DNA of 64,000 nucleotides, taken from NCBI GenBank assembly GCA_902774815.1, contig CACYJV010000002.1, forward strand, positions 80,373 to 144,372, in the 5' to 3' direction. Below are positions 10,195 to 15,693 of the stretch, in pieces. This DNA is from an uncultured Prevotellaceae bacterium (lineage in GTDB: Bacteria; Bacteroidota; Bacteroidia; Bacteroidales; Bacteroidaceae). How positions within the stretch are numbered: position 1 is the first letter of the stretch; each line of letters begins with the position of its first letter. The translations under genes and the position numbers were made by a program. The notes below the pieces were generated by a model. It searched no databases. It had not been told where the DNA came from and saw only the letters and a list, made by a program, of their open reading frames with translations.

Positions 10195-10233
10195 GCAATG
10201 GGGCAGGAAATCGACTTGCCCCACTGCTTTTTT
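10195..10233 (+). terminator. Intrinsic terminator
   Basis: GCAATGGGGCA and TGCCCCACTGC pair around an 11-nt loop, followed by TTTTTT. It ends the secreted-protein gene at 10193 and separates it from the aromatic operon. Confidence 0.85.
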
Positions 10234-10244
10234 CTTTCAAAATA

Positions 10245-10276
10245 TTTGCAGGAATAAAATAAATGTTATAATTTTG
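10245..10276 (+). promoter_or_regulatory. Promoter of the Phe/Tyr operon
   Basis: TTTG (10245-10248), a 20-nt spacer and TAATTTTG (10269-10276) match the Bacteroidota promoter. The transcript would begin about 25 nt before the leader peptide start at 10305. Confidence 0.85.
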
Positions 10277-10304
10277 CACGCTAGAAGTCAAAAAGATAAC
10301 AAAC

Positions 10305-10367
10305 ATGAACAAGAAGGGCTTTTTTTACGGCTATTACTATTACTTTGCAGACATCTGTGAAGCGTAA
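10305..10367 (+). CDS. Phe/Tyr leader peptide of the aromatic operon
   Basis: A 20-codon reading frame, ATG at 10305 and TAA at 10365-10367, encodes MNKKGFFYGYYYYFADICEA. Residues 6-14 (FFYGYYYYF) contain three Phe and five Tyr in nine codons. It lies between a consensus promoter and an intrinsic terminator, directly upstream of genes for Phe and Tyr synthesis. This is the arrangement of a ribosome-stalling attenuator. Stalling at 10320-10346 when Phe-tRNA or Tyr-tRNA is scarce would leave 10356-10364 free to pair with the terminator's 5' arm. The peptide itself is presumably non-functional. No earlier description of this leader is known to me. Confidence 0.88.
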   Translation: MNKKGFFYGYYYYFADICEA

Positions 10368-10432
10368 GGCCGTGGAAGTTGCTCTATTCCTGTCAAGAGA
10401 GAGAATAAAAATCATGAAAGCCCCGCTTCACA
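10356..10432 (+). promoter_or_regulatory. Antiterminator pairing of the attenuator
   Basis: TGTGAAGCG at 10356-10364, the last codons of the leader peptide, is perfectly complementary to CGCTTCACA at 10424-10432. The latter is the inner 5' arm of the terminator, so the two pairings exclude each other. A ribosome at the leader stop codon (10365) would cover the first segment and allow termination. Confidence 0.82.
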
Positions 10433-10453
10433 AATTAGTGAGTGGGGCTTTTT
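10417..10453 (+). terminator. Attenuator terminator upstream of pheA
   Basis: AAAGCCCCGCTTCAC pairs with GTGAGTGGGGCTTT through about 14 base pairs with one bulge and a 6-nt loop, followed by a short T-run. It lies between the leader peptide and pheA, so it must be conditional for the operon to be expressed. Confidence 0.88.
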
Positions 10454-10484
10454 AAATTGAAAATTGAGAATTGAAAATTGAAAA

Positions 10485-10550
10485 TTCAAAACCGCGCGTA
10501 GCGCATCGGACCATTCAAACCATTCAAAACCGCGCACAGCGCATCGAACC
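10485..10550. repeat. 28-bp direct repeat in the pheA leader
   Basis: Copies at 10485-10512 and 10523-10550 (TTCAAAACCGCGC..AGCGCATCG.ACC) match at 25 of 28 positions. They follow a run of ATTGAAA-type repeats at 10454-10484. All of this lies after the attenuator and before the pheA start. Confidence 0.8.
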
Positions 10551-10554
10551 AAAT

Positions 10555-11403
10555 ATGAAGAGGATAGCGATACAAGGTCAGCTGGGGTCGTTCCACGACA
10601 TTGCCGCTCAGCAATACTTCCAAGGCGAACAGGTGCAGATCATCTGTTGTTCGACCTTCGAACAGGTGTATGAGCAAATCAAGCGCGACCCCACCGTCAT
10701 CGGGATGACGGCCATCGAGAACACCATCGCCGGAAGCCTGCTCCACAACTACGAGTTGTTGCGCGACTCGGGTACGGCCGTGGTGGGCGAGCATAAGCTC
10801 CATATCGAGCATTGCATTTGTTGCTTGCCCGACGACACGTGGGACACCATCACCGAGGTGCACTCCCACCCCGTGGCACTCATGCAATGCCGTGGATTTC
10901 TGGCCAACCACCCGGCACTGAAAGCCGTCGAAGCCGAGGACACCGCAGGGTCGGCCGAAGAGATACAGCGCCTGAAATGCCGTGGATGGGCCGCCATCTG
11001 CCATGCCGATGCCGCACGCATGTACGGACTGAAGGTGCTCGAAAACCAGATTGAGGACAACAAGCACAACTTCACGCGATTTCTCGTCGTGTGCAATCCG
11101 CGCAAGGCCGACTTCATGCGGTCGCTGGAACAAGCCGACAAAGCAAGCCTGGTGTTCTCGCTCCCGCACGAGGAAGGATCGCTCTCGAAGGTGCTCACCA
11201 TCCTTTCGTTCTACAACATCAACCTGACGAAAATCCAATCGCTGCCAGTCATCGGCCATGAGTGGGAGTATATGTTCTACGTGGACGTGACCTATCAGAA
11301 CCTGACTCGCTACCGGCAATCTATCGATGCCATCGTACCGCTGACGAAAGAGCTTCAGATACTGGGCGAGTACACGAAAAGTGAGGTAACAGGTAATAGG
11401 TGA
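10555..11403 (+). CDS. pheA: Prephenate dehydratase with ACT domain
   Basis: Converts prephenate to phenylpyruvate in Phe synthesis. It has 282 residues from the ATG at 10555 (MKRIAIQGQLGSFHDIAAQQYF). The PDT domain includes GMTAIENTIAGSLLHNYELL and ends near residue 190. The C-terminal ACT domain begins at LVFSLPHEEGSLSKVLTILS and continues INLTKIQSLPVIGHEWEYMFYVD, the usual Phe-sensing module. An upstream start at 10471 would translate repeat sequence and is unlikely. The last residues (SEVTGNR) and the TGA stop are supplied by heptamer repeat sequence, so the natural C-terminus was probably overwritten. First structural gene of the attenuated operon. Confidence 0.95.
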   Translation: MKRIAIQGQLGSFHDIAAQQYFQGEQVQIICCSTFEQVYEQIKRDPTVIGMTAIENTIAGSLLHNYELLRDSGTAVVGEHKLHIEHCICCLPDDTWDTITEVHSHPVALMQCRGFLANHPALKAVEAEDTAGSAEEIQRLKCRGWAAICHADAARMYGLKVLENQIEDNKHNFTRFLVVCNPRKADFMRSLEQADKASLVFSLPHEEGSLSKVLTILSFYNINLTKIQSLPVIGHEWEYMFYVDVTYQNLTRYRQSIDAIVPLTKELQILGEYTKSEVTGNR

Positions 11404-11494: not shown

Positions 11495-12670
11495 ATGGCA
11501 AACAACATAAAACCTGCTGAGAGGTTGTCGCTCGTTCAGGAGTACTACTTCTCGCGCAAATTGAAGGAAGTGGCACAACTCAATGCCGAGGGACGCGACA
11601 TCATCTCGCTGGCCATCGGATCGCCCGACATGCCTCCTTCGCCTCAGACCATCGAACGGCTTTGCCAGGTGGCACAACTACCCAATGCCCACGGCTATCA
11701 GCCTACGATGGGAACGCCCGAGCTGCGCGTGGCCATGGCACGCTACTACAAGAAGACCTACAACGTCGACGTGGACCCTGCCACGGAGGTGCTGCCCCTC
11801 ATCGGTTCGAAGGAGGGTATACTCCACATCACGCTGGCCTTCGTCAACCCGGGCGACACGGTGCTGGTGCCCAATCCTGGTTACCCCACCTACACATCGC
11901 TCTCGAAGTTGCTCGGCGCCAATATCGAGTATTACGACCTGACCGAGGAAAGGGGTTGGCAACCCGACTTCGATGACTTGTCGCATCGGGATCTGTCGCA
12001 CGTGAAGCTCATGTGGACGAACTATCCACACATGCCGACCGGGGCTCCCGCCACCTTGGACGTCTACGAGCGTCTGGTGGAGCTGGCCCGGAAGAACAAT
12101 TTCGTCATCGTCAACGACAATCCCTACTCGCGCATCCTGAATGACCACCCGCTGTCCATCTTCAACTCGTTCGACACAGCCAAGGATCATTGCATCGAGC
12201 TCAACTCCATGTCGAAAAGTCACAACATGCCAGGCTGGCGTGTGGGCATGTGCATCGCAAAGCCCGAATTCATCTCATGGATTCTGAAAGTACAATCGAA
12301 CATCGAGAGCGGTACCTTCCGAGGATTGCAACTGGCGGCCGCCGAAGCGTTGGACACGAACACCGACGAGTGGCATTTGGAACACAACATCCAAACCTAT
12401 GCCCGACGCCGCCAATGGGCCGAGGAAATCATGCGTGTGCTCGGATGCACTTTCGACCGCAAGCAAGTGGGCATGTTCCTCTGGGGACGTATACCCGACC
12501 ATTACGACCATGTGGAACAACTCACGGAGTTCCTCCTCCACGAGGCGCGCGTGTTCATCACGCCAGGCTTCATCTTCGGAACGCAAGGCGAACGCTACAT
12601 TCGCATATCGCTCTGTGCCAAGGAAGAGAACATCAAGGAAGCATTAGAAAGAATCAAAAAAGCAATATAA
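11495..12670 (+). CDS. PLP-dependent class I/II aminotransferase
   Basis: Protein of 391 residues, fold-type I. Conserved features are the N-terminal ISLAIGSPDMPPS, the cofactor-binding NPGYPTYTS, VNDNPYS with the Asp/Tyr that contact the ring, and the PLP lysine in SMSKSHNMPGWRVG near residue 238. The closing arginine region is INLCAK-like (YIRISLCAKEENIKEALERI). Between pheA and the DAHP synthase gene its likely job is transamination of phenylpyruvate and hydroxyphenylpyruvate, or of prephenate. This is inferred from context, since the aspartate/aromatic class cannot be split by eye. The DAHP synthase gene starts 2 nt after its stop. Confidence 0.9.
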   Translation: MANNIKPAERLSLVQEYYFSRKLKEVAQLNAEGRDIISLAIGSPDMPPSPQTIERLCQVAQLPNAHGYQPTMGTPELRVAMARYYKKTYNVDVDPATEVLPLIGSKEGILHITLAFVNPGDTVLVPNPGYPTYTSLSKLLGANIEYYDLTEERGWQPDFDDLSHRDLSHVKLMWTNYPHMPTGAPATLDVYERLVELARKNNFVIVNDNPYSRILNDHPLSIFNSFDTAKDHCIELNSMSKSHNMPGWRVGMCIAKPEFISWILKVQSNIESGTFRGLQLAAAEALDTNTDEWHLEHNIQTYARRRQWAEEIMRVLGCTFDRKQVGMFLWGRIPDHYDHVEQLTEFLLHEARVFITPGFIFGTQGERYIRISLCAKEENIKEALERIKKAI

Positions 12671-12672
12671 TC

Positions 12673-13743
12673 ATGGAATTAGGATTAGAACTACAACCAC
12701 TGAATCTGCCTGCCGACAACGAACGACCGATCGTCATTGCAGGCCCTTGCTCGGCCGAAACCGAGGAACAAGTCATGACAACAGCCCGTCAACTGAAGGA
12801 ACTGGGCTGCCACAACTTCCGTGCAGGTGTATGGAAACCGCGCACTAAACCCGGTGGCTTCGAGGGCCACGGCGAGCAGGCTCTGCCTTGGTTGCAACGC
12901 GTAAAGGCCGAGACGGGCATGAACGTTGCCACCGAAGTTGCCACGCCCCAACACGTTGAGCTGGCCTTGAAATACGACGTCGATATCCTCTGGGTGGGTG
13001 CTCGCACCAGTGCCAATCCTTTTGCCGTGCAAGCCCTGGCCGATGCGTTGCGTGGTGTCGACAAGCCCGTATTGGTGAAGAACCCCGTCAATCCCGATCT
13101 GGAACTATGGATTGGTGCCATCCAGCGACTGAATGCCGCCGGTGTGCGCCGTCTGGGAGCCGTTCATCGTGGTTTCTCCAGCTATGACCGGAAGATCTAC
13201 CGCAACCTGCCCATGTGGCAGATTCCTATCGAGTTGCGACGCCGCTATCCCAACCTGCCATTGCTCAACGACCCAAGCCACATCGGCGGCCGACGCGAAC
13301 TCATCGCACCACTCGCCCAGCAGGCTATGGACCTGGGATTCGACGGATTGCTCGTCGAAAGCCATTGCTCGCCCGACGAAGCCTGGAGCGACGCCCGCCA
13401 ACAGGTGACGCCCGAGGTGCTCGACTACATCCTCTCGTTGCTCGTCATCCGCGACCAGCGCGTCTCAACTGAGGGTATTCGTCAACTACGCCATCAGATT
13501 GACGAGCTCGACAACCAGCTCATGGACTTGCTGGCCAAACGCATGCGCGTCTGTCGCGAGATTGGCCAGTACAAGAAGGAGCACAACATGACCGTCCTTC
13601 AGACCAAACGCTATAGTGAGATCCTCGCCAAGCGTGGTGCTCAGGGCGCTCAATGCGGCATGTCGGCCGATTTTGTCGCCAACGTCTTCGAACACATCCA
13701 CGAGGAAAGCGTACGCCAACAAATAGAGATCGTCAATCAATGA
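12673..13743 (+). CDS. Bifunctional DAHP synthase / chorismate mutase
   Basis: Protein of 356 residues joining the first shikimate-pathway enzyme to the Phe/Tyr branch-point enzyme. The N-terminal type I-beta DAHP synthase (residues 1-260) shows IAGPCSAE, FRAGVWKPRTKPGGFEG, VGARTSANPF, LVKNPVNPDL, LNDPSHIGG and ESHCSPDEAWSDA. The C-terminal AroQ-type chorismate mutase (about 270-350) shows IRQLRHQIDELDNQLMDLLA, RMRVCREIGQYKKEHNM and the C-terminal helix. The mutase lies at the C-terminus, the opposite of the Bacillus fusion; such a domain may also mediate feedback control. The start at MELGLELQPLN lies 2 nt after the aminotransferase stop; a longer reading upstream runs through that gene in the wrong frame. 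Confidence 0.94.
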   Translation: MELGLELQPLNLPADNERPIVIAGPCSAETEEQVMTTARQLKELGCHNFRAGVWKPRTKPGGFEGHGEQALPWLQRVKAETGMNVATEVATPQHVELALKYDVDILWVGARTSANPFAVQALADALRGVDKPVLVKNPVNPDLELWIGAIQRLNAAGVRRLGAVHRGFSSYDRKIYRNLPMWQIPIELRRRYPNLPLLNDPSHIGGRRELIAPLAQQAMDLGFDGLLVESHCSPDEAWSDARQQVTPEVLDYILSLLVIRDQRVSTEGIRQLRHQIDELDNQLMDLLAKRMRVCREIGQYKKEHNMTVLQTKRYSEILAKRGAQGAQCGMSADFVANVFEHIHEESVRQQIEIVNQ

Positions 13744-13874: not shown

Positions 13875-14729
13875 ATGGATAACTCTCAAAACAATAGTAA
13901 TCAACTTCCCCTCCCCTTGGGAGGGGCCAGGGGTGGGTTCCGAATCCTCATCCTTGGTGCAGGCAAGATGGGATCGTTCTTCATCGACCTGCTCAGTTTT
14001 GAACACGAAGTCGCCGTCTACGACCGCGACCCGCAACGCATGCGGTTCACATACAACTGCCAGCGATTCACACAGCTGGAAGAAATCGGCAGCTTTCAGC
14101 CGCAACTCGTCATCAATGCCGTCACGTTGAAGTACACCATTCCCGTCTTCCAACAGATCATACCTCTGTTGCCCAAGGAATGTATCATCAGCGACATCGC
14201 CTCCGTGAAGACAGGTCTGCATGAGTACTATCAGCAATGTGGGCATCCCTACGTGAGTTCCCACCCCATGTTCGGTCCCACCTTTGCCAACCTCAACCAA
14301 CTCTCGCAGGAGAACGCCATCATCATCAGCGAGGGCGACTACATGGGGCGCATCTTCTTCCGCGACCTTTACCAGCGATTAGGGCTTAACATCTACGAGT
14401 ACACCTTCGACGAGCACGATCGAACCGTGGCCTATTCGCTCAGCATACCGTTCGTCTCGACATTCGTCTTCGCGGCCGTCATGAAGCACCAGGATGCACC
14501 TGGAACCACGTTCAAACGCCACATGCAGATTGCAAAGGGCGTGCTCAATGAAGACGACTATCTGCTTCAGGAGATTCTCTTCAATCCCTACACTCATGAC
14601 CAGGTCAGCCAAATACGAACCGAGCTCAAGGAACTGCTTGAAATCATCGACACTCGCGATGCCGAAGGCATGAAAAACTACCTTACCAAAATCCGAAATA
14701 ACGTCCGCCGCGACATCGAAAGGAATTAA
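13875..14729 (+). CDS. tyrA: Prephenate dehydrogenase with repeat-derived N-terminus
   Basis: Oxidatively decarboxylates prephenate to 4-hydroxyphenylpyruvate for Tyr synthesis. It has 284 residues. The NAD-binding Rossmann loop LILGAGKMGS is at about 24-33, preceded by a 21-residue extension. Further family features are VINAVTLKYT, IISDIASVKTGL, SSHPMFGPT and DEHDRTVAYSLSIP. Residues 11-21 (LPLPLGGARGG) are encoded by the palindromic repeat at 13905-13939. Relatives usually begin just before the Rossmann strand, so the repeat and its flank appear to have supplied a new start codon and N-terminus. It belongs to the Phe/Tyr operon, 131 bases after the DAHP synthase gene. Confidence 0.92.
   Translation: MDNSQNNSNQLPLPLGGARGGFRILILGAGKMGSFFIDLLSFEHEVAVYDRDPQRMRFTYNCQRFTQLEEIGSFQPQLVINAVTLKYTIPVFQQIIPLLPKECIISDIASVKTGLHEYYQQCGHPYVSSHPMFGPTFANLNQLSQENAIIISEGDYMGRIFFRDLYQRLGLNIYEYTFDEHDRTVAYSLSIPFVSTFVFAAVMKHQDAPGTTFKRHMQIAKGVLNEDDYLLQEILFNPYTHDQVSQIRTELKELLEIIDTRDAEGMKNYLTKIRNNVRRDIERN
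13905..13939 (+). repeat. Palindromic repeat translated inside tyrA
   Basis: CTTCCCCTCCCCTTGGGAGG followed by GGCCAGGGGTGGGTT. It is read in frame as part of the tyrA N-terminus without creating a stop. Confidence 0.88.
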
Positions 14730-14760: not shown

Positions 14761-15693
14761 ATGCGAACCAACACAAGACTCATTGGACACATTGTAGCGT
14801 TTCTCGTGGTGGCCGTCTGGGGCAGCACGTTCGTCTTCACGAAACTGCTGTTGCTCAGCGGGTTGTCGCCAGCACAGATCTTCACGCTGCGGTTCATCGT
14901 TGCCTATGCCCTGCTCCTGGCGTTCTCGCTATGCAGGCATGGGCATCGGTGGATGGCCGACACGTGGAAAGACGAGCTGCTGATGGTGGGACTTGGCCTC
15001 ACGGGCGGTTCCATGTATTTCCTGACCGAGAATGAGGCCATGAACCATACGACGACAACGAATACTTCCCTTATTGTTTGTTTATGCCCGCTCTTTGCAA
15101 CAGCACTCATTGGTGCTGTCTATAAGACGGAAAGGCTTCGACCAAGCCAGATGTTGGGCACCGTGTTGGCCGCATTGGGCGTTGTCGTCGTGGTGCTGAA
15201 CGGCCATTTCGTTCTTCATTTGTCACCTCTTGGCGACACGCTTGCACTTTCAGCCTGCCTATGTTGGGCGGTCTATTCGTTGCTCATGATTTCGGCAAAC
15301 AAGCGTTACGATGTGGTGTTCATCACACGAAAGGTGTTTTTCTATGGGCTTCTGTCAATGATTCCCTACTATTTGCTCACGGGCAACGACTTCCTGTCGA
15401 CAAACCACGGCAGCAGTCTGCTGGAAGTACTTCGCAAACCCGCCATCCTTACCAACCTTCTCTTCCTAGGTTGTGTGGCCTCAATGATTTGCTTTGTGGC
15501 ATGGAACTGGGCCATGAAGGTCTTGGGGGCCGTTACGACTACCAACTATGTCTATGTGAATCCTATCACGACGATTCTTTTCGCGTGGATGATTCTCAAC
15601 GAACAAATCACCATCTTTTTTCTCCTCGGTACTTTGCTCATTCTAACAGGCATGTACCTCGCCGAAAACTCACCCCGACACACCAACAAATAG
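14761..15693 (+). CDS. EamA/DMT-family transporter
   Basis: Inner-membrane protein of 310 residues with about ten predicted helices in two EamA-type halves. Typical signatures are VVAVWGSTFVFTKLLL at the start, LRFIVAYALLLAF, then in the second half SALCWAVYS-like ALSACLCWAVYSLLMI and NPITTILFAWMILNEQITI near the end. The family exports metabolites and amino acids. It lies 31 bases after tyrA on the same strand, so export of aromatic amino acids or an overflow intermediate is a reasonable but unproven guess. Convergent with copA, with only 29 bases between. Confidence 0.88.
   Translation: MRTNTRLIGHIVAFLVVAVWGSTFVFTKLLLLSGLSPAQIFTLRFIVAYALLLAFSLCRHGHRWMADTWKDELLMVGLGLTGGSMYFLTENEAMNHTTTTNTSLIVCLCPLFATALIGAVYKTERLRPSQMLGTVLAALGVVVVVLNGHFVLHLSPLGDTLALSACLCWAVYSLLMISANKRYDVVFITRKVFFYGLLSMIPYYLLTGNDFLSTNHGSSLLEVLRKPAILTNLLFLGCVASMICFVAWNWAMKVLGAVTTTNYVYVNPITTILFAWMILNEQITIFFLLGTLLILTGMYLAENSPRHTNK

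Follow-up and report, generated by a model that had tools for sequence, protein, structure and literature searches.

The operon for phenylalanine and tyrosine biosynthesis of this uncultured Prevotellaceae bacterium is very probably controlled by a transcription attenuator of the ribosome-mediated kind, which probably senses both charged tRNA-Phe and charged tRNA-Tyr. The element lies immediately upstream of pheA in the window (the whole stretch of 64,000 nucleotides of DNA that was analysed), and it is class-wide in Bacteroidia, not peculiar to the window genome. Its anatomy, conservation, covariation and in-silico switching are established below, beginning with the features of the leader region and the operon.

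10245 to 10276, + strand: promoter, read as TTTG (10245-10248) and TAATTTTG (10269-10276), or alternatively as TTTGCA-16-TATAAT (10245-10272).
10305 to 10367, + strand: leader peptide gene of 20 codons encoding MNKKGFFYGYYYYFADICEA, with ATG at 10305 and the stop codon TAA at 10365-10367.
10320 to 10346, + strand: sensor codons FFYGYYYYF, 3 Phe and 5 Tyr (from the sequence).
10315 to 10385, + strand: hairpin 1:2, pairing 10343-10350 with 10355-10362, with a lower stem of 10315-10337 with 10364-10385 (from folding and from relatives).
10355 to 10371, + strand: segment 2, the 5' strand of the antiterminator, with core TGTGAAGCG at 10356-10364 (duplex p 0.005).
10417 to 10453, + strand: intrinsic terminator, consisting of the hairpin AAAGCCCCGCTTCAC..GTGAGTGGGGCTTT (10417-10451) and a T tract to 10453.
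10420 to 10432, + strand: segment 3, the 5' arm of the terminator (from the sequence).
10555 to 11403, + strand: pheA, prephenate dehydratase (Pfam PF00800, PF01842).
11495 to 12670, + strand: class I/II aminotransferase (Pfam PF00155).
12670 to 13743, + strand: DAHP synthase-chorismate mutase fusion (Pfam PF00793, PF01817), start codon approximate.
13875 to 14729, + strand: prephenate dehydrogenase, tyrA (Pfam PF02153), start approximate.

The first-pass annotation of this DNA had proposed a promoter, a 20-codon leader, an intrinsic terminator and a 9-nt antiterminator pairing at this site, and direct reading agrees with it base for base: TGTGAAGCG (10356-10364) is exactly complementary to CGCTTCACA (10424-10432), and 8 of the 9 residues of the sensor run are aromatic. 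All the parts that it claimed are present; what it overlooked is the competing hairpin 1:2, formed when the final codons of the sensor run, together with those preceding them, pair with segment 2 and the bases after it. Hairpins 1:2, 2:3 and 3:4 are therefore all present, and the classical attenuator architecture is complete. The promoter was also found by a general sigma-70 promoter scan, which picked up TTTGCA-16-TATAAT (10245-10272), and its position (10245-10276) stands, with the reading amended to TTTG (10245-10248) and TAATTTTG (10269-10276) as a Bacteroidota-type promoter, after the pattern TTTG..TAnnTTTG that we take to be the consensus of the phylum. A similar promoter pattern is visible by eye 5' of the leaders of some relatives (uncounted). 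The consensus at segment 2 in relatives is GTGAAGCGGG.

The terminator (10417-10453) was recovered by folding-based scans; its hairpin (10417-10451) is absent from the results of a strict consensus terminator scan, which gave other sites, including 10199-10223. Between the terminator and pheA (10454-10550), short repeats are seen by eye, AATTGAAAATTG... and, twice, AACCGCGC..AGCGCATCG. When both strands of the 64-kb window were scanned for a short frame in which 6 or more of 9 residues are aromatic, accompanied by a terminator-like hairpin, this site and one other were found, the other (47010, minus strand) being poor. Leaders biased to amino acids other than these, again with a terminator, were also sought across the window; one weak Arg-rich candidate emerged (48987, minus strand).

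The genes that follow the leader had been said to make both amino acids, and Pfam matches for both branches bear this out. The ACT domain match of pheA (PF01842) scores under the curated cut-off. The operon covers the first step of the pathway as well as the phenylalanine and tyrosine branches, and possibly includes an EamA-type transporter gene (14761-15693) located directly 3' of tyrA.

The leader abounds in codons for the very amino acids that the operon makes, the intrinsic terminator lies between it and the first gene, and hairpin 1:2 is placed over segment 2 as a protector. If the leader is translated, as we infer, a ribosome supplied with plentiful Phe and Tyr would reach the end of the leader and cover segment 2, upon which the terminator (3:4) would fold and transcription would end near 10453. 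With either amino acid short, the ribosome would stall on a Phe or Tyr codon and open hairpin 1:2; segment 2, thus freed, would pair with segment 3, blocking the terminator, and the pheA-aminotransferase-DAHPS/CM-tyrA operon would be transcribed in the cell by readthrough. In an untranslated leader, hairpin 1:2 would hold the default at termination.

Folding of the window RNA is consistent with this scheme. The RNA from 10277 to 10460 is more stable than expected (z = -5.0, with 0 of 200 shuffles equally stable), and the duplex of leader and terminator arm reaches z = -4.2 at the lowest p obtainable with 200 shuffles (0.005). A fold model was built in which the ribosome footprint reached from 18 nt before to 12 nt beyond the first base of the A-site codon and pairing by RNA on its 5' side was disallowed; here, 11-12 antiterminator pairs form when the ribosome stalls at codons 5-14. 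None form without a ribosome or with a ribosome at the stop codon, the latter zero being partly a matter of construction because RNA upstream of the ribosome is barred from pairing. Model stalls on Phe codons and on Tyr codons alike free segment 2.

For comparison among genomes, a module was defined as a run of at least 5 aromatic residues in 9 within a frame of 8-60 codons, with a hairpin and T tract that begin 15-135 nt after the run. Searches for pheA detected it in 39 of the 60 relatives, in 52 of 119 genomes from the order and in 102 of 118 genomes sampled across the phylum. The module was found upstream of pheA at all 27 loci of the genus, at 45 of 49 evaluable loci in the rest of the order and at 20 of 24 loci in other orders of the class, which amounts to 92 of 100 evaluable loci in the class (L045 and L096, which end at a contig edge, were excluded from the counts). 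The leaders of L044 and L093 begin with GTG or TTG. Removal of nine overlapping or antiphase frames (L031, L032, L058, L060, L069 twice, L073, L088, L090) left 105 modules. By this rule, eight of the 100 class loci have no module (L038, L040, L104, L107, L074, L076, L124, L125), L107 having a weaker leader (4 of 9 aromatic) with a terminator. To the eye, the DNA before pheA at L038, L074 and L076 resembles the end of another gene. A set of 80 loci from named records, which shares some members with the genus set and comes mostly from Prevotellaceae and Bacteroidaceae, includes 79 with a leader (at least 6 of 9 aromatic) and 78 with both leader and terminator; Phocaeicola vulgatus ATCC 8482 is among those with the module.

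Outside the class, the module was found at 2 of the 23 loci examined from 77 pheA matches, a weak control because some of the matches lie inside longer frames (e.g. 387, 392 and 736 residues), where the 600-800 nt scanned may miss the start of the operon. The pheA proteins of the two positives, L057 (G171) and L077 (G223), group with those of class Bacteroidia in a tree of 36 proteins (support 89/88 and 98/90, respectively), which suggests either that the operon was transferred together with its leader or that the bins are misassigned.

Within the genus, the element and the aromatic operon are closely linked. A covariance model built from the 27 genus leaders and searched against 80 genus genomes matched 63 of them (E <= 0.0023); the sole other match up to E 1 (G006:C7, E 0.8) is no leader and is spurious. 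The element lies 50-165 nt 5' of pheA, on the same strand, in 61 of the 62 genus genomes counted as having pheA (a count that excludes the weak 30% match of G278 and includes the partial match of G296), and 16 of the 80 lack both pheA and the element; these genomes possibly belong to aromatic auxotrophs. Some of the 16 are listed as 99% complete (e.g. G003, G010, G300, G314). In G029 (L138), where pheA was not found, the element precedes the aminotransferase, DAHPS/CM and tyrA genes (recognised by their translations), and in G311 (L139/L140), where pheA is on a separate contig and has no leader, the element remains at the aminotransferase operon. All 63 genus genomes with a credible match have it at the aromatic operon. 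One draft genome (isolate RGIG3292) contains two distinct pheA loci, each with a leader (L143 and L210), owing to either duplication or a mixed bin.

Relatives keep the peptide, and their antiterminator pairing changes in a compensatory manner; the comparative check suggested by the first-pass annotation has thus been run and passed. In the set of 105 modules, the best duplex between leader tail and terminator arm (mean z -3.3) was significant against dinucleotide shuffles (p <= 0.05) in 86, including 62 of the 78 modules outside the genus; in the other 19 its p exceeded 0.05. Covariation was counted in 69 of 79 modules anchored on GGG/AGG and CCC/CCT cores only (the other 10 were lost as unanchored), with the genus represented once (L008) and the rest mostly from different families. 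Two bases before the core (offset -2), all four Watson-Crick pairs occur, C-G (13 modules), G-C (12), A-U (8) and U-A (7), along with U-G (4). With G-U included, 44 of 69 are paired, whereas 2000 permutations of the partners averaged 25.8 and never exceeded 38. Offset -1 (50 paired, permutation maximum 46) and the core base at offset 0 (52 paired, maximum 50) also exceed every permutation, in a count in which several anchors look misplaced; offset -3 (42 paired) equals the permutation maximum, and the remaining variable offsets fall within the permutation range. These antiterminator bases must suit the terminator's 3' arm as a pairing partner too. Matched changes within the genus were seen by eye in L143, L146 and L154, in an alignment of which several rows are mis-anchored. 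The antiterminator (2:3), whose pairing is predicted to exclude the terminator, is conserved with compensatory changes.

The placement of the antiterminator is informative as well. The distance from the last aromatic codon to its start has a median of 8 nt (quartiles 7-10), compared with 19 nt (8-31) in shuffled tails, and its position relative to the stop codon ranges from -28 to about +4 (5th to 95th percentile). The constant quantity is the distance from the stalled ribosome, which matches what the mechanism needs. In one subgroup (L008, L019, L027 and similar), TTTCAACTTA is conserved after segment 2, just past the leader stop codon; by eye, it is complementary to AAGTTG near its end and could form a small hairpin in the antiterminator loop.

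Structural predictions for the whole set follow the window less uniformly. In 99 of 105 modules, half or more of segment 2 pairs with RNA upstream of it, a figure that carries no shuffle control, and the z score of the fold is below -2 in 62 of 105. From a MAFFT alignment, RNAalifold predicted some of the terminator and, of hairpin 1:2, the top but not the lower stem. In the ribosome model, a stall in the middle of the run gives more 2:3 pairing than the absence of a ribosome in 96 of 105 modules and no gain in nine. At least 5 of the 2:3 pairs persist without a ribosome in 65 of 105 modules; thus, the model clearly supports default termination by way of hairpin 1:2 in the window, and does so less generally across the set.

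Judging from codon content, a single leader probably senses both phenylalanine and tyrosine. At least two of each residue are found in 101 of 105 modules, and the leaders together contain 510 Phe, 412 Tyr and 31 Trp. A Trp codon also occurs in 30 of 105 leaders, which raises the possibility that all three aromatic amino acids are read in those lineages. Phe and Tyr codons are one base apart, Phe outnumbers Tyr in total (510 versus 412), and two of the 105 modules, L028 and L091, contain no Tyr; from these facts it might be argued that the attenuator, while functional, responds in effect to a single amino acid, chiefly Phe or chiefly Tyr, and that codons of the other are tolerated as spacers. 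This is unlikely, given that nearly all leaders (101 of 105) hold at least two of each residue, that the operon produces both amino acids, that model stalls at either type of codon free segment 2, and that the run in G029, where pheA was not found, retains both residues.

Two further explanations dispense with attenuation by a leader ribosome altogether, and the relationship between the peptide and the RNA bears on both. Among 100 unique leaders of the genus and its near relatives, 91 could be anchored and nine could not. In 7 of the 91, the number of nucleotides separating the last Phe codon from the conserved GCG core is not divisible by three, which scrambles the tail of the peptide and keeps the RNA; since an in-frame aromatic run was built into the selection of leaders, the evidence consists of these tail shifts only. 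The code and the RNA appear to be under separate constraint. A riboswitch that binds tRNA or another ligand (a T-box or similar), to which the short frame would be incidental, could account for a structured 5' region with a terminator; it could hardly account for leader tails that go out of frame with the RNA kept and the aromatic run in frame. Neither the window nor 13 related loci matched any cis-regulatory family of Rfam at its gathering score, including the leader families (Phe_leader, Bacteroid-trp and others) and the T-box covariance model, and up to an E value of 1 there were just seven matches, all far under the cut-offs. A riboswitch is accordingly very improbable. The idea that the open frame, having a promoter and a terminator of its own, is the gene of a small functional protein unrelated to pheA regulation is if anything more improbable: 7 of the 91 anchored leaders keep the RNA with their C-terminal tails shifted out of frame, the terminator arm covaries with the leader RNA, and the element sits at the aromatic operon in 63 of 63 genus genomes with a credible match. 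The preferred reading therefore remains a ribosome-mediated attenuator for both amino acids.

Eleven loci possess two leader-terminator modules in series 5' of pheA (L032, L033, L034, L059, L070, L087, L089, L092, L097, L103 and L105). Both duplexes have p <= 0.05 in five of these (L032, L033, L034, L097 and L103), which represent five different families; neither does in L092, and one does in each of the other five. The first hairpin is followed by the start codon of the second leader after 15-21 nt in L032, L033, L034, L097 and L103, which leaves little space for a second promoter, and so transcription probably passes both modules. In L032-L034, the core pairings differ between the two modules (ACGGG/CCCGT and GGTGG/CCACC), which should limit cross-pairing. 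The second leader of L032 ends within its own terminator, far downstream of segment 2, and second-module leaders of this kind fit the classical scheme poorly. It is an evenly balanced proposition that an attenuator ancestral to Bacteroidia and reading Phe or Tyr has been kept in most of the sampled lineages that bear the operon and doubled in several families, where two ribosome-read gates would act multiplicatively as a sharper or tighter switch.

The pheA, trp and his attenuators of Proteobacteria consist of a leader peptide with control codons, the hairpins 1:2, 2:3 and 3:4, and a terminator before the operon. The architecture found here is the same, but Phe and Tyr codons occur together, the leader has no Rfam leader match, and the element is spread throughout the class Bacteroidia, in tandem in some lineages. 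The leaders of ilvGMEDA (Ile/Val/Leu) and thrABC (Thr/Ile) each sense several end products of their operons and are likewise multi-amino-acid leaders, for other amino acids and in another phylum. To our knowledge, a leader that reads Tyr is unusual. The Bacteroid-trp motif (RF01692) presumably lies before trp genes with a frame of Trp codons; the present element differs in operon and in residues, and the model of that motif found no match in the window or 13 related loci. Attenuators of Bacteroidetes/Chlorobi are reportedly mentioned by Vitreschak 2004. The tandem attenuators of Salmonella mgtCBR respond to different signals, whereas the serial elements described here consist of two similar Phe/Tyr modules with separate terminators.

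In mgtCBR, two short leader frames serve one operon (PMC3641672), and the cis-regulatory RNAs listed for Bacteroidetes include Bacteroid-trp, RF01692 (PMC2864571). A short frame before aroF of Acholeplasma, uORFC-13-1, followed by a terminator, has been proposed to read Phe (PMC8632094); it too precedes a gene of the aromatic pathway, but Phe is the one amino acid named as read, and the phylum is another. A survey of 2010 considered that, before its own case in Firmicutes, leader-peptide attenuation had been shown in no phylum outside Proteobacteria and Actinobacteria (PMC2965389). The transcript map of Bacteroides thetaiotaomicron mentions short frames resembling leaders within long 5' UTRs and makes no reference to pheA in the main text (PMC7366714).

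The closest precedent is in the transcriptome of Flavobacterium psychrophilum, in which strong clues of leader-peptide attenuation were noted before amino acid operons and a structured 5' element without an Rfam match was found before pheA, occurring in other genera of Flavobacteriaceae and, as far as the main description goes, stated for nothing wider (PMC9723704). That description gives the element without a leader sequence, a pairing or an amino acid specificity (PMC9723704). Because the gene and the class are the same, it is probably the same element as the Phe/Tyr attenuator. The first-pass annotation knew of no described mixed Phe/Tyr leader of this form in Bacteroidota; no such description was found among the openly available papers surveyed, although Vitreschak 2004 and Lopatovskaya 2010 may hold one, but the claim must be qualified by the structured element already reported before pheA in F. 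psychrophilum (PMC9723704).

The mechanism is that of classical ribosome-mediated attenuation; what is new, apparently, is the mixed Phe/Tyr specificity, the spread across a class and the modules in series. A family definition for Rfam could follow, and the benefit of doubling an attenuator could be tested in nature on the serial modules. In a phylum in which leader-peptide attenuation has been little studied, the element may provide a conserved and easily tested rule for the control of phenylalanine and tyrosine synthesis in a class that is prominent in the gut and rumen.
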